DNA from: an uncultured Alphaproteobacteria bacterium | GTDB taxonomy: Bacteria > Pseudomonadota > Alphaproteobacteria > CAAHEQ01 > UBA3637 | DNA: 36,744 nt | NCBI GenBank assembly: GCA_944393195.1 | Contig: CALXZG010000011.1 | Location: 1-36,744, forward strand | Reading direction: 5' to 3' | Shown: positions 1 to 28,623 of the stretch, piece after piece | How the letters are laid out: each line of letters opens with the position of its first letter | How positions within the stretch are numbered: position 1 is the stretch's first letter | Notes under the pieces: generated by a model | The model's input: the letters and a program-made list of their open reading frames with translations, nothing else | What the model was told of the DNA's origin: nothing | Database searches by the model: none | Position numbers and translations under genes: made by a program

Positions 1-113
1 TACGATGTGTCTGTATACGTCGTCTCCTCCGGTGTCTCCGAATATGACGTGTCTGTATACGTCGTCTCCTCCGGTGTTTTCGAATACGACGTATCTGTAT
101 ACGTCGTTTCCGT
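1..113 (-). repeat. Coding 42-base tandem repeats, array 1
   Basis: About 2.7 copies of a 42-base unit run to the left edge. In the minus-strand frame each unit encodes the 14-residue EETTYTDTSYSETP. Copies differ by a few mostly synonymous bases. The array probably continues outside the window. Confidence 0.85.
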
Positions 114-1007
114 CACAGGTGTACTGGCTTCCCCAATTAAACACCCATAAGAACTATCCCATGTATATCCGCAATCTTCACAATATTCCTGATAACCCGG
201 ATTATTACACGCAACGCAACTACCACCACACCAAGTATAACCGATTTCACATTCCCGATCACTACCTGTTTCCGAAACCGTTGATATTGTCGTATCCATC
301 GGTGTCTCTGAATATGACGTGTCTGTATACGTCGTCTCTTCCGGCGTCTCCGAATATGACGTATCTGTATACGTTGTCTCTTCCGGTGTGTCTATCGACG
401 TATCCTCATAAGTTGTCTCATAGGTCGATAAATCAATTGGATTGATACACTTACCATTCTGCCATACCCAACCACAACCATTTTGACAAGAATATTCATT
501 CGTTACATCGGAACACAATTGACAGCCATTTCCACAATAAGGATCATCATAATTCTGAATATATCCGTCCGCACAATCACAGCCACAACCATTCCATGTT
601 CCACCGGATGATGTGCATAATGCTTCATTTGGAGAAGTTGCAGATACGGTTGTCTCTGTCCCAGTGGCTGAAGTCGTTGACAAAGTTGTATCCGTTCCGC
701 TCCCCGAAACGGTGGAAAGCGTCGTATCTGTTCCGGATACGGTTGATTCCGTCCCCGACACCGTTGTCGTACTGGAACTGGTCACGGACAATGTCGAAGC
801 CGATGTTAACCCGAGCGTTGCCACATTGGCCTGAATCAATTCACATAGCGGGGAGTTTAATACCCCGTCACAGGCGCATTGATCCTCCCGAATAATACAA
901 CACTTATTACTGACAACCACGTCACATTCGGTTGCCTGCGCCAAAGAAGGGAGGCACAAAATCGATAACGTTGCAATCGCACATCCACACAATAAAACCT
1001 TTTTCAT
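1..1007 (-). CDS. Secreted cysteine- and Thr-repeat-rich protein (3' end beyond the window)
   Basis: An open frame runs from ATG at 1007 to the left edge with no stop, so the C-terminus is missing; about 335 residues are visible. I translated it by hand. The N-terminus is a classical Sec signal: two Lys, a hydrophobic stretch, then LAQA followed by TECD, which suggests signal peptidase I cleavage. About 23 cysteines lie in the visible mature part, in clusters such as GCGCDC and WCGGSC. Between them are Ser/Thr-rich stretches (TVSGTDTT type, about residues 70-125) and 14-residue repeats of the form EETTYTDTSYSETP. The start lies 16 bases after the stop of the pilin-like gene, and GGAG and AGGA sequences precede the ATG, so the two genes are probably one operon. 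Function is unknown; a surface or extracellular stalk-like protein is the likeliest reading. I do not recognise a named family. Confidence 0.8.
   Translation of the reverse strand, partial: MKKVLLCGCAIATLSILCLPSLAQATECDVVVSNKCCIIREDQCACDGVLNSPLCELIQANVATLGLTSASTLSVTSSSTTTVSGTESTVSGTDTTLSTVSGSGTDTTLSTTSATGTETTVSATSPNEALCTSSGGTWNGCGCDCADGYIQNYDDPYCGNGCQLCSDVTNEYSCQNGCGWVWQNGKCINPIDLSTYETTYEDTSIDTPEETTYTDTSYSETPEETTYTDTSYSETPMDTTISTVSETGSDRECEIGYTWCGGSCVACNNPGYQEYCEDCGYTWDSSYGCLIGEASTPVTETTYTDTSYSKTPEETTYTDTSYSETPEETTYTDTS
301..413 (-). repeat. Coding 42-base tandem repeats, array 2
   Basis: A second block of the same 42-base unit lies in the same frame, separated from array 1 by a cysteine-rich module. 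The last copies degenerate to forms such as YEDTSIDTPEE. Alternation of Thr/Glu repeat blocks with cysteine modules looks like spacer-and-knob architecture. Confidence 0.8.
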
Positions 1008-1023: not shown

Positions 1024-3462
1024 TTATTTATTTTTAGTCACAAACCGCCAACCGGAATATAAACACCAGTATTTGCATGTATAAGAACCGCTTCCATTAT
1101 CTGTCATACCGTTTAATGTACAATTCGTCTTCAACGGACACCACGGCACAACACAAGAATTAACACTTCTGCCGCAAATAGTATCATTTGAAGAAGAGCA
1201 ACACCACACATGTGAGTCGTCCCGACACGGAGTACTATTACAACAACTTCCCGCAGAAGTTGTCGAACCGGAACACGTCTCAGAGACAAGATAACGCTTA
1301 GCATTAGTCTCACCATATTCTAAGACCCAGTCCCCGGAACAACACGTTCCTGTATTGTTAAAATACCTACCCAGGTTAGGATACTTATTGGGGCAATAAT
1401 TACAACGTCCACCCCCACCTCCTGCCACGATAGGAACACAACCACATGCGTCTGAATCAAAGATATAATCCCCGACACACTCCGTACTGACACAACATCC
1501 GTCACAACAGGTTTCATTTTCACCGCACGCAGTGGCATCTGTACAGCTTGTACACGAACTGCCGCTACCGCCGCCACCGCTTGTACATATTCCATCCACG
1601 CATGTTTCTCCGTCCCCACAATCGGCACCACTGGTACATGATGTCGGTGGAGTACACACGCCATTTTCACACGTTCCCTCACCGCAATCGGCATCACTGG
1701 TACAGGGTGTTGCACATATTCCGTCTGCGCGACAAATTTCACCGGCCGCACAACACGTATCACCGCACGCCGTTTCGCCCTCACCACACTCTTTCACACA
1801 CGCACAATTTTCAAAAACATACCCGTCCGCACATGTCGTTGTCGATGTACAAACACTGTCACAACACGCCTGATTCTCACCGCAATCATCATCCCCTTCA
1901 CACGGGCGCGCCCCGCATACCCCGTCATTACAAATTTCACCGGCCGCGCAACAATCATCTCCGCATACCGTTTCATCGGCCTCACAAACACGGACACAGG
2001 CACAATTTTCAAAGGTGTATCCTTCCGGACAAGATGTCGATGTACACACATCCGAACAACACGCTTCATCCGCCGAACATGTCGTTTCACAAGCGCATGT
2101 TTCCGAACTGAAAGTTTCACATCCCCCGTCACAGGCCGGTTGCTCTATACACGCATCTTGACAACAAATCTTGCCGTCTTGACATCCGCTGACACACGAT
2201 CCGTCGGAACAATAGGCGCATCCCGCACAATCCTCGTCACTGGTACATTCGGGTTCCGGCTCCTGACACACACCGTTCACACATTCTTCCCCATCACCGC
2301 AACAACTGTTGCCACATACATTGGCTACCGAACAACAGGCTCCACCGACACAGGATTCCGTCGCCGTATCACAACAAACCGTCCCACAAACGGCTATATT
2401 ATCCGGTACGGTACATGTGCCATTAATACATTGCTCACAACTTCCCGTACAATCATCACTGGTGCTACACACGCCAATGGACCCGCTGCAATCCGCAGAA
2501 CACGTCCCGTCACCGCAACATTTCGTACCACTCGAACACGTCGTTTCACAAGCCCCCGTATCCGGATTACACGCCTCACAATTGTTTTCCGAACACGTGA
2601 CACCTGCACACAAATTACAATTAGAACGACACACACCGTCACTGCAACACGTCAATCCGTCCGAACACCCCGTTTCGGCACAAGATTCATCCGGATCAGG
2701 ATCCGGATCAGGATCCGGTTCCGGGTTCGAACAACTTGCGGCACACTCCCCGTCACAACACTCTAACCCCAACGTAGCACACGATTGACACGAATCCGTC
2801 GCCGCATCAAATTGCATACATTGCCCACACCCGTTGTTCGGTTCATCATCAACACCGCATGCATCCCCATATTGAGAAAAACATAACGTCAACGGCAAAC
2901 TGCCGGCATTGACATCCCCGGGATCCGACGGCTTGCGTTCATTTTCATCAATTAACCGACAAAAATCTTCTTTTGCCTCCGCGGAAGCACTCGGCAACAC
3001 CTGTTGCCCCGCCGCATTAGTCACATAGGCAACCTTGTATTCCAAATTTCCCCGCAATAATTTTTGGCAAACACCAAAGCTGACATTTGTCATATCTACT
3101 TCAAAAGCATCTCGATTAATCACGCGGACGGATACTTCGGAAGCCAAAGGCGTTGTGTATGTATACGGCACCGCTACACCGGGCGCGGCATTAAAATCAA
3201 CCCCGCTGATAACCTCCGGCATCGGCACGGAAACATCCTTATTCTCTGCCTCCGCCTCTTCACCGTATTTTTCCAACATAAAACCCGTTCTGGAACCGAC
3301 AATTGTTTTCACAACCCAATCAACCGATTGGTTTTCTTTATGTACTTCCATGGCATACCGAAACCCCGTCACCGCTCCGACCGTCAACAATCCGATAAAA
3401 GCCAGCGTCGTCAAAGTCTCCACCATTGTCCGACCGGATTCGCTTAACCACTTTTTCAACAT
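1024..3462 (-). CDS. Giant cysteine-rich type IV pilin-like protein
   Basis: The protein has 812 residues from ATG 3462, chosen because AGGAGG sits five bases upstream; the frame extends 10 codons further up without a better site. The N-terminus has the type IV prepilin signature: a short basic leader (MLKKWLSESG), cleavage after Gly10, Glu at mature position +5 (RTMVE), then a hydrophobic segment to about residue 38. Residues 40-190 look like a pilin globular part with few cysteines. From about residue 190 to the end there are over 110 cysteines in short motifs (ECCDGEC, CCAAGEIC, CxxDxDC), with a Pro-Asp linker near residue 260 and Gly-rich linkers near residues 630 and 680. Two adjacent modules of about 60 residues are near-duplicates. 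Pilins are usually 120-200 residues, so this is a pilin anchor carrying a very large disulfide-rich head. Extracellular assembly is inferred. Confidence 0.85.
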   Translation of the reverse strand: MLKKWLSESGRTMVETLTTLAFIGLLTVGAVTGFRYAMEVHKENQSVDWVVKTIVGSRTGFMLEKYGEEAEAENKDVSVPMPEVISGVDFNAAPGVAVPYTYTTPLASEVSVRVINRDAFEVDMTNVSFGVCQKLLRGNLEYKVAYVTNAAGQQVLPSASAEAKEDFCRLIDENERKPSDPGDVNAGSLPLTLCFSQYGDACGVDDEPNNGCGQCMQFDAATDSCQSCATLGLECCDGECAASCSNPEPDPDPDPDPDESCAETGCSDGLTCCSDGVCRSNCNLCAGVTCSENNCEACNPDTGACETTCSSGTKCCGDGTCSADCSGSIGVCSTSDDCTGSCEQCINGTCTVPDNIAVCGTVCCDTATESCVGGACCSVANVCGNSCCGDGEECVNGVCQEPEPECTSDEDCAGCAYCSDGSCVSGCQDGKICCQDACIEQPACDGGCETFSSETCACETTCSADEACCSDVCTSTSCPEGYTFENCACVRVCEADETVCGDDCCAAGEICNDGVCGARPCEGDDDCGENQACCDSVCTSTTTCADGYVFENCACVKECGEGETACGDTCCAAGEICRADGICATPCTSDADCGEGTCENGVCTPPTSCTSGADCGDGETCVDGICTSGGGGSGSSCTSCTDATACGENETCCDGCCVSTECVGDYIFDSDACGCVPIVAGGGGGRCNYCPNKYPNLGRYFNNTGTCCSGDWVLEYGETNAKRYLVSETCSGSTTSAGSCCNSTPCRDDSHVWCCSSSNDTICGRSVNSCVVPWCPLKTNCTLNGMTDNGSGSYTCKYWCLYSGWRFVTKNK
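1700..2085 (-). repeat. Duplicated cysteine module inside the pilin-like gene
   Basis: Two neighbouring stretches (about 1910-2085 and 1700-1890) encode parallel modules: ACC-S-DVC or ACCDSVC, then CTST, GYTFENCACV or GYVFENCACV, and CGD-CCAAGEIC. They probably arose by internal tandem duplication. Boundaries are approximate. Confidence 0.75.
2692..2718 (-). repeat. Short GGATCC/GGATCA repeat encoding a Pro-Asp linker
   Basis: Alternating ggatca and ggatcc hexamers encode a (Pro-Asp)n linker between cysteine modules of the pilin-like protein. This kind of simple repeat can change length by slippage in multiples of six bases without frameshift. Confidence 0.75.
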
Positions 3463-3574
3463 AAAAGCCTCCTGTTTCCCCAATATCGTCACCCTGTTTA
3501 ATGCGATAGCCGACAGAACATCAAAACATTCTCCTCGGCATAATCATCGGGTTATATATCTGCACGTGATTTTA

Positions 3575-27126: not shown

Positions 27127-28623
27127 ATGTTTTTAACAAAACCGCCTAAATTATTCCGAACAACACCGGTCGCCGATACGACCGCAACACCAACCGCTAC
27201 GGAACCGACACCGCAACCGACACCACAGGCATGGTCTCCGGCACCGATTCCGCAACCGGCTGCCGCTCCGGCACCGGCTCAACCCGTCGTCGAAACCTCT
27301 CCGGCACCGAATCCGGACCCGATAACAGAGCCCGCAACTCCGGAAACATCGGCACCGATTGCAACGAAAACCACCTCCGCAATGCCGGTCGAACAGGCTT
27401 CTCAACCAATCCCGCAGGATACCCTCGCGGAAGCCGATTTACCGACGCCGGCCGAACCGACGCCTCAACCGATTCCGCACAATATAAATACGGATACCGA
27501 AGTGGTGCGCTACGCCCGCCCGAAAGAAGCGGTCGCAACCACCGAACCGACAGAAACAATCCCCGGCGTTTCCGTAACAACCTCCGTCCAAACGTCGACC
27601 CAGTCCATGCCGGATATCGATCAACCGACGGATATCGGCAACCGCGAAAAACGCATCGTCCGCGCTCGGTCGGTTAGCTCGATTCCCTTTGCCGACTTGT
27701 GGTATACACCTGAAAAGATCGCCTATATCCGCGACGAATCCACCAAGTTTGCCTTGATTCCGTTTGAAGCCGACGATCTGAAAGACTTCTACAAAGCTTT
27801 GGAACAAGGCTATACCGGCGCATCCAGCTATGCGTTAAAATTTGCCGGAGAATCTTACCGTATCGAACGGATTGTCACCATTACCGGCGTCCAGTATAAC
27901 TGCCGTAAAATGCCGACTAAAACACCGGATATTTATACTCTCGGCCTGCCCGAACCGATTGTCGATTACTTGGTCGGTTTGTCTCAGGAAGCCGGCCTCA
28001 TCCTCTTCGGCGGTCCGACCGGTATGGGTAAAACAACAACCGCTTCGGCTCTGATGCGAAAATATCTGGAACGCGACGGCGGCTTTATGTATACCATTGA
28101 AGACCCTCCCGAAATGCCGTTGGACGGCTTGTATCACGCGGCGAACGGGGCCCTCGGCCTGTGTAAACAATGTCCGGTGGAAAATGAACGGTGGAGCGAC
28201 GGGATTAAATCCGCCCTCCGTTCCCGTCCGCGTTATATTCTGGTCGGCGAAATCCGAACGCCGGAAACCGCCTCTCAGGTTTTACGCGCCGCGACATCGG
28301 GCCACTTGGTCTTGTCAACCATTCACGCCAGCAGTGTGGAAGACTCCCTGAACTCCATCTTGAAATATGCGGCCGGTGCCGGATTGGCCGAAAGCTTGGT
28401 TGCCGACTTATTGGCACGCGGTATTTTAGCCGTTGTCCACCAAAAACTGGAAGGGACGGAAAAACTGCGGCCGGTGCTGCATACCGCATTTGCGAACCCC
28501 AACCCGTTGGTTGCCGATCAAATGCGTATGAGTATTCGCGACGGTAAAATCAACCTCGGAACGTTAATGGAAGCGCAAACAAGCAAACTGTTCCAAGGTA
28601 AACCATTATTCCGCGAATTTTAA
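27127..28623 (+). CDS. PilT/GspE-family secretion or pilus ATPase with proline-rich N-terminus
   Basis: This 498-residue protein starts at ATG 27127 with AAGGAG upstream. Residues 1-165 are low-complexity, rich in Pro, Thr, Ala and Gln, with no membrane segment. Residues 185-260 resemble the N2 domain of secretion ATPases. The ATPase core has Walker A GPTGMGKTT (296-304), Asp box TIEDPPE (323-329), Walker B ILVGEIR (371-377) and His box SGHLVLSTIHA (391-401). Such enzymes power type IV pilus extension or retraction or type II secretion. I saw no tetracysteine zinc motif as in GspE, although CKQC occurs at 346-349. The gene stands alone with its own terminator. A role in exporting the pilin-like protein at 1024-3462 is an inference. 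Confidence 0.88.
   Translation: MFLTKPPKLFRTTPVADTTATPTATEPTPQPTPQAWSPAPIPQPAAAPAPAQPVVETSPAPNPDPITEPATPETSAPIATKTTSAMPVEQASQPIPQDTLAEADLPTPAEPTPQPIPHNINTDTEVVRYARPKEAVATTEPTETIPGVSVTTSVQTSTQSMPDIDQPTDIGNREKRIVRARSVSSIPFADLWYTPEKIAYIRDESTKFALIPFEADDLKDFYKALEQGYTGASSYALKFAGESYRIERIVTITGVQYNCRKMPTKTPDIYTLGLPEPIVDYLVGLSQEAGLILFGGPTGMGKTTTASALMRKYLERDGGFMYTIEDPPEMPLDGLYHAANGALGLCKQCPVENERWSDGIKSALRSRPRYILVGEIRTPETASQVLRAATSGHLVLSTIHASSVEDSLNSILKYAAGAGLAESLVADLLARGILAVVHQKLEGTEKLRPVLHTAFANPNPLVADQMRMSIRDGKINLGTLMEAQTSKLFQGKPLFREF

Follow-up and report, generated by a model that had tools for sequence, protein, structure and literature searches.

The window, that is, the whole 36,744-nucleotide stretch of an uncultured Alphaproteobacteria contig analysed here, carries close to its start a giant type IVb pilin-like gene and, immediately downstream, the gene of a putative secreted partner (Table 1). 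The pilin-like gene reads on the minus strand from an ATG at 3462 to a stop codon at 1024-1026 through 812 uninterrupted codons, with a strong Shine-Dalgarno sequence (AGGAGG) before the ATG, and an alternative GTG start at 3492 would lengthen the protein by 10 residues. Two of its 118 cysteines lie in residues 1-185 (C132 and C168) and the other 116 in residues 186-812, where they make up 18.5% of the sequence. The first-pass annotation had described a head of about 600 residues with more than 110 cysteines, and this count over the last 627 residues agrees with it; the ORF is intact and the observation is confirmed as real.

Table 1. Features of the giant pilin locus, in positions of the window.
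Feature	Position	Strand	Basis or remark
Giant type IVb pilin-like gene	1024..3462	(-)	Intact ORF, AGGAGG before ATG; 812 aa, 118 Cys; stop included
Prepilin leader, residues 1-10 (MLKKWLSESG), predicted cleavage after Gly10	3433..3462	(-)	Gly10/Glu15 invariance, sequence
Type IVb pilin domain, residues 11-200, conserved C132 and C168	2863..3432	(-)	AlphaFold2 model, VIA-align neighbours
Cysteine-rich head, residues 201-812, predicted chain of short beta-hairpins	1027..2862	(-)	Cys count, full-length model
(PD)n linker, residues 247-259	2686..2724	(-)	6/12-nt tandem repeat; PEPDPDPDPDPDE in protein
66-residue module, copy A, residues 463-528	1879..2076	(-)	Direct repeat, offset 66
66-residue module, copy B, residues 529-594	1681..1878	(-)	Direct repeat, offset 66; 57% identity over best 60 residues
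Partner gene, Sec-type signal peptide by eye, 26 Cys, 14-residue Thr/Ser repeats	3..1007	(-)	Cut by contig end

The partner gene starts 16 nt downstream of the giant pilin gene, in the same direction and with its own ribosome site, and contains 42-nt tandem repeats, within which the contig terminates. Profile searches found no family match for the partner protein. Cysteine-rich secreted genes also lie downstream of two orthologues of the giant pilin (L075 and L077), and the Thr-rich gene near the first of these has a layout similar to that of the partner, although sequence similarity between the two was not detectable. In the CofB and TcpB systems, trimers at the pilus tip load the secreted proteins CofJ and TcpF, which are encoded in the same operon (PMC9565799). 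An adjacent gene for a secreted partner, which is a feature of this type, is present here with a signal peptide recognised by eye, and by analogy its layout recalls the CofB/CofJ and TcpB/TcpF pairs.

Pilin domain, pilus machine and cysteine-rich head

The leader of the giant pilin is followed by RTMVETLTTLAFIGLLTVGAVTGF, which begins RTMVE and continues with about 20 mostly hydrophobic residues, so that Gly stands at position 10 and Glu at +5; the short charged leader, Gly, Glu+5 and hydrophobic helix of a class III signal peptide are all present in the sequence. Neither Gly10 nor Glu15 varies among 16 relatives and paralogues or among nine orthologue-like sequences. The prepilin site that the first-pass annotation had proposed (Gly10, RTMVE, Glu+5) is therefore upheld, together with a domain model that is type IVb-like, and no homologue lacking the Gly/Glu+5 pattern appeared among these 16 and nine sequences. 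The mature +1 residue of type IV pilins is usually Phe, Met or Leu, from which the Arg of the giant pilin departs. C132 and C168 are invariant within the close subfamily and are positioned like the D-region disulfide of pilins, with a bond predicted between them.

The HMM search advised by the first-pass annotation gave a divided answer: no curated pilin profile matches the giant pilin (Pfam up to E 10; none in NCBIfam), but one of its orthologues clears TIGR02532 with 16.8 bits against a cut-off of 16.3. When a profile of the relatives was compared with PDB sequences, five of the six weak matches were pilins; TcpA, one of them, aligned across most of the domain. The AlphaFold2 model of residues 1-205 (pLDDT 82, pTM 0.75) gave no significant match with Foldseek alone, whereas a second look with VIA-align separated the type IVb pilins. 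Indeed, all 11 best rows are type IVb pilus-system proteins (ten are entries for pilins, and the other, 3eoi, is an E. coli protein named PilM), the best neighbour being Salmonella PilS (3fhu; Z 10.3, 3.1 A over 131 residues), with TcpA at Z 7.3, CFA/III and CofA at 6.9-7.2, the tip minor pilins TcpB and CofB at 5.9 and 5.1, and the first unrelated fold down at 3.5; a single Z below 8 is weak alone, and the argument rests on the unanimity of the rows and on the gap below them. The full-length model repeated the type IVb result in a comparison that spanned the pilin domain only (residues 37-200). On the conserved motif, the model and the relatives, the N-terminal ~200 residues are thus a predicted type IVb pilin domain, and we count the giant protein as a pilin because of the PDB profile matches, the invariant Gly10 and Glu15 and the type IVb-like model.

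The host genome, a 1.15-Mb draft of 24 contigs and 88.6% complete, encodes one prepilin peptidase of 231 aa (E 2e-18), in which PF01478 is the sole domain matched in Pfam, a methyltransferase domain not being among the matches; this is the enzyme whose absence the first-pass annotation had held to speak against a pilin. An operon on contig 7 comprises TcpQ and the accessory protein PAP_PilO (both exceeding their Pfam cut-offs), a lipoprotein secretin that most resembles the PilN type IVB family (TIGR02520, 281.8 bits, just under the cut-off of 287.7), a 910-residue ATPase and an inner-membrane T2SSF platform protein. From these matches, the operon is a predicted R64/TCP-like type IVb pilus system. 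The likely candidates for the major subunits are short pilins with 4 Cys and a length of about 143-162 aa, which cluster on contig 2. In the window itself, an ATPase at 27127-28623 (+) with a long Pro/Thr-rich N-terminus is nearest to the PilT/PilU family (112 bits, far below the cut-off of 319), and this match makes it a candidate pilus retraction motor. On contig 3 (L026; G000:C3, about 98-100 kb), a T2SSE-type ATPase lies beside an ORF that by eye is VirB10-like, of T4SS type, and a pilin start follows downstream.

Regarding the disulfide machinery, which the first-pass annotation had also proposed to look for, the genome encodes a DsbA-like protein in addition to the prepilin peptidase, but DsbB and VKOR, the expected partners of DsbA, were not found in this 88.6% complete genome. 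A DsbA-like protein encoded at L065:5885-6850 (G000:C17) is rich in Cys in the N-terminal stretch that precedes its membrane helix, and just downstream of it a pilin gene begins.

Neither the whole giant pilin nor its head matches Pfam, NCBIfam or PDB sequences. The duplication of 60-residue modules claimed at first pass is real, but its period is 66 and not 60: the best 60-residue window is 57% identical, while shuffling the head 200 times gave at most 32%. Moreover, the motif C-x2-5-CC-x-C-x-C occurs 10 times, where 1.7 occurrences are expected and the maximum in 1000 shuffles is 7. Structure prediction, another check named at first pass, was confident for the type IVb-like pilin domain but poor for the full length (pLDDT 53, pTM 0.37); within the head, regular short beta-hairpins were modelled at residues 400-460, 480-518 and 545-625 with pLDDT of about 60-84, and the remainder is unmodelled. 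With modest confidence, the head can be read as a row of small disulfide knots, and its cross-linked state is what composition and this model point to. In one paralogue, matches below threshold were obtained to Dickkopf_N (E 0.002) and EB (E 0.007), whose modules share with the head small repeated units with CC and DC spacing; the giant pilin itself differs in having no such match at E up to 10, and we claim no homology.

Relatives and paralogues

About 34 pilin matches were found in the giant pilin's own 1.15-Mb genome (G000), and its N-terminal type was found in all 43 family genomes searched, with at least 74 matches in some of them. In a sample of 240 genomes of the class, 13 had any match at 1e-12, three of these being from the giant pilin's genus. 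Strong domain matches to the close subfamily occur in nine genomes of the same family (G000, G001, G003, G008, G012, G013, G019, G057 and G058). A contig scan with the giant pilin as single query found no relatives, and a scan with an alignment of relatives led to 8 named loci. The named relative records are MAGs of uncultured Alphaproteobacteria, several from ruminants and deer. Their heads hold from 21 to at least 117 Cys; two pilins of more than 1200 residues (L081 and L082, with at least 109 and at least 117 Cys) also contain long Thr/Ser repeats and are both cut by contig ends. The orthologues sit in differing gene neighbourhoods, and when the rsmB-ftsZ neighbourhood was sought around them, synteny was not seen. 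The first-pass interpretation is thus supported at its core, but the giant pilin is less unusual than it implied: the head size is extreme, yet the architecture is common in its own genome, and the Cys counts of other large pilins in the family run from 21 to at least 117.

Truncated or chimaeric pilin copies occur at G000:C1:185634, C6:7890 and C22:4528 and at the contig ends of C2 and C17. Recombination among pilin copies together with assembly breaks is suggested, because several contigs start or end inside pilin genes. More broadly, such pilins account for up to dozens of genes in a reduced-genome family of gut Alphaproteobacteria, and the pilus is therefore probably a main interface of these bacteria with the host, mucus or other cells. 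A possible link to Rs-D84, a gut order with reduced genomes (PMC12306168), was considered.

Proposed mechanism and alternatives

What was observed comprises the pilin domain, the conserved signal, the peptidase and the machine, the operon layout, the head composition and the repeats. On this basis we consider it reasonably probable that the giant pilin belongs to a type IVb pilus as a modular minor pilin, probably located at the tip, and displays a disulfide-hardened stalk. The prepilin peptidase of the genome would cut the leader after Gly10, and the R64/TCP-like machine encoded elsewhere in the genome would polymerise the pilin domain. As so large a head could hardly be packed into the filament body, the giant pilin would then most likely sit at the tip or initiate the filament. 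The head may cross the secretin of the PilN type stretched out as a chain of small hairpin modules stabilised by disulfides, may act as a protease-resistant stalk or adhesin, and would carry the co-transcribed secreted Cys/Thr-rich partner, as CofB carries CofJ and TcpB carries TcpF. This mechanism raises the physical question of how a heavily disulfide-bonded head passes through a secretin, as well as that of how, in an anaerobic gut, the head is oxidised when no DsbB or VKOR can be recognised.

CofB and TcpB, from the CFA/III and TCP pili, share with the giant pilin the same predicted N-terminal type IVb fold, a large C-terminal extension and a secreted partner in the same operon (PMC9565799). 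In contrast, their extensions consist of beta-repeat and H-type lectin domains, whereas that of the giant pilin is a string of Cys-rich modules and its putative partner is Cys/Thr-rich. The lectin-like domain 3 of CofB and TcpB was not seen in the giant pilin, in a structure comparison that spanned residues 37-200 with the head mostly unmodelled. PilV of the R64 and TP114 thin pili is likewise a large minor pilin of an R64-like machine that displays variable C-terminal modules (PMC9045228), but the giant pilin matches no PilV or shufflon profile, and variety here comes from about 34 gene copies and DGR-like hypermutation in seven paralogues (see below) and not from DNA inversion. A modular pilin is defined as a pilin module with an extra module not specific to pili; 264 architectures were counted, the most extreme one named having 860 residues with 12 copies of another motif (PMC8179133). 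The giant pilin has this build, with a pilin domain to about residue 200 followed by 612 residues of Cys-rich sequence. As in PilB (vWA) and PilC (lectin) of Streptococcus sanguinis, a functional module appears grafted onto a pilin (PMC8179133), but here the module exceeds 600 residues of Cys-rich repeats and contains no known domain. Modular pilins are thus already known (PMC8179133); what is new is the Cys-knot head together with its size, and the expansion across the whole family, and a pilin with a cysteine-knot string of more than 600 residues was not found in the literature searched.

Several other readings of the same gene must be weighed. It is hardly credible that the gene is a dead member of a repeat-rich pilin family or a product of mis-assembly: several pilin copies of the same genome are indeed truncated or at contig ends, and the contig of the giant pilin itself ends inside the partner-gene repeat, but the uninterrupted ORF with its strong ribosome site and the relatives of full length that other genomes contain, with 31-46% identity in the pilin domain, argue against this. 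It also seems improbable that the head is mainly metal- or redox-buffering, in the manner of a metallothionein, and not a structural or adhesive stalk. Such a role would suit 118 Cys with one His in the head and a genome in which no DsbB or VKOR was found, but the CC and C-x5-C spacing, the Gly/Asp turns and the predicted hairpins resemble disulfide knots, a paralogue shows weak EB/Dickkopf similarity, and the exported location together with a DsbA-like protein favours oxidation.

Another unlikely reading is that of an initiator or pseudopilin which resembles a pilin but remains in the envelope, with the N-terminus as an anchor and the head as a rigid periplasmic or surface coat. In its favour, the size and low-complexity Cys content of the head suit a coat, the many paralogues of one genome could tile a surface, and the tip location is deduced. 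Against such a coat, the secretin, ATPase and platform genes form a complete-looking T4b operon, and Glu+5, which in type IV pilins is needed for assembly rather than anchoring, is invariant in 16 sequences. We also find it rather doubtful that the role of the pilus and of the proteins at its tip is in mating between cells or in DNA transfer instead of attachment to host or mucus. The machine is R64-like (PilN, PilO, TcpQ/PilL-type), PilV tip variants choose recipient cells in such systems (PMC9045228), and immediately upstream of a further pilin copy (L026) there is an ORF for a T2SSE-type ATPase that is similar to a T4SS component, but the giant pilin matches no Pfam model at E up to 10, PilV and shufflon models included.

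Retroelement signatures and variable tips

Seven paralogues of about 415 residues in the giant pilin's own genome (L006, L008, L009, L011, L016, L017 and L020; G000) end in SSGxV, a variable stretch and ALCR, or a close variant of this. In the variable stretch, codon positions 1, 2 and 3 show 15, 18 and 3 changes, and outside it the third position is always the most variable, as in the N-terminal part with 24, 22 and 118 changes. At the level of sequence, this codon pattern is the mark of A-directed mutation of AAC/AAT codons, that is, the signature of a retroelement of the DGR type. A truncated reverse transcriptase lies directly after one hypervariable pilin gene (L057:1355-2158; G000:C1), departs from the reverse transcriptase sequence after about residue 210, and is the only reverse transcriptase match in the genome; no template repeat for these paralogues turned up in the loci retrieved. 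For the giant pilin itself, a DGR variable repeat was considered and rejected, its C-terminus being by inspection unrelated to the ALC[RH] termini.

In three relatives (L126:3644-7742, L125:3350-7454 and L128:3592-8864), a small protein, a template repeat and an intact reverse transcriptase come after a Cys-rich pilin gene, and a nearby small secreted protein bears at its end a variable repeat that matches the template repeat. The mismatches between template and variable repeat fall at a template A in 9 of 10, 11 of 11 and 9 of 9 cases. Sub-cut-off matches to NF033474 and PF22296 point to an Avd-like protein in two of the three (L125 and L126).

DGR targets with putative pilin structures have been noted before (PMC6642488), and the tip proteins of Bacteroides type V pili are known DGR targets (PMC12632263). 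The likeness to our case is that of hypermutated pilus-borne proteins in gut bacteria, here in the seven paralogues, but the pilus is of type IVb and the giant pilin has no variable repeat. The use of DGRs on type IVb pilins was not found in the literature searched, the principle itself being known. Together, about 34 pilin genes, some with a hypermutated tip, suggest a large and changeable set of surface hooks. With a confidence that falls a little short of even, we propose that the type IVb pilus of this family is an exchangeable display, in which dozens of pilins would carry disulfide-knot stalks, some would bear lectin-like tips rewritten by reverse transcriptase, and the giant pilin would be a long-stalk member with a secreted tip partner. 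If true, this would be a DGR-diversified type IV pilus, and the linked retroelement signature would extend targeted hypermutation from the type V pili of Bacteroides to type IV pili. It should be noted that a second DGR type, apparently phage-borne, is also present in relatives (L123, L124 and L129), where template and variable repeats differ almost only at A.
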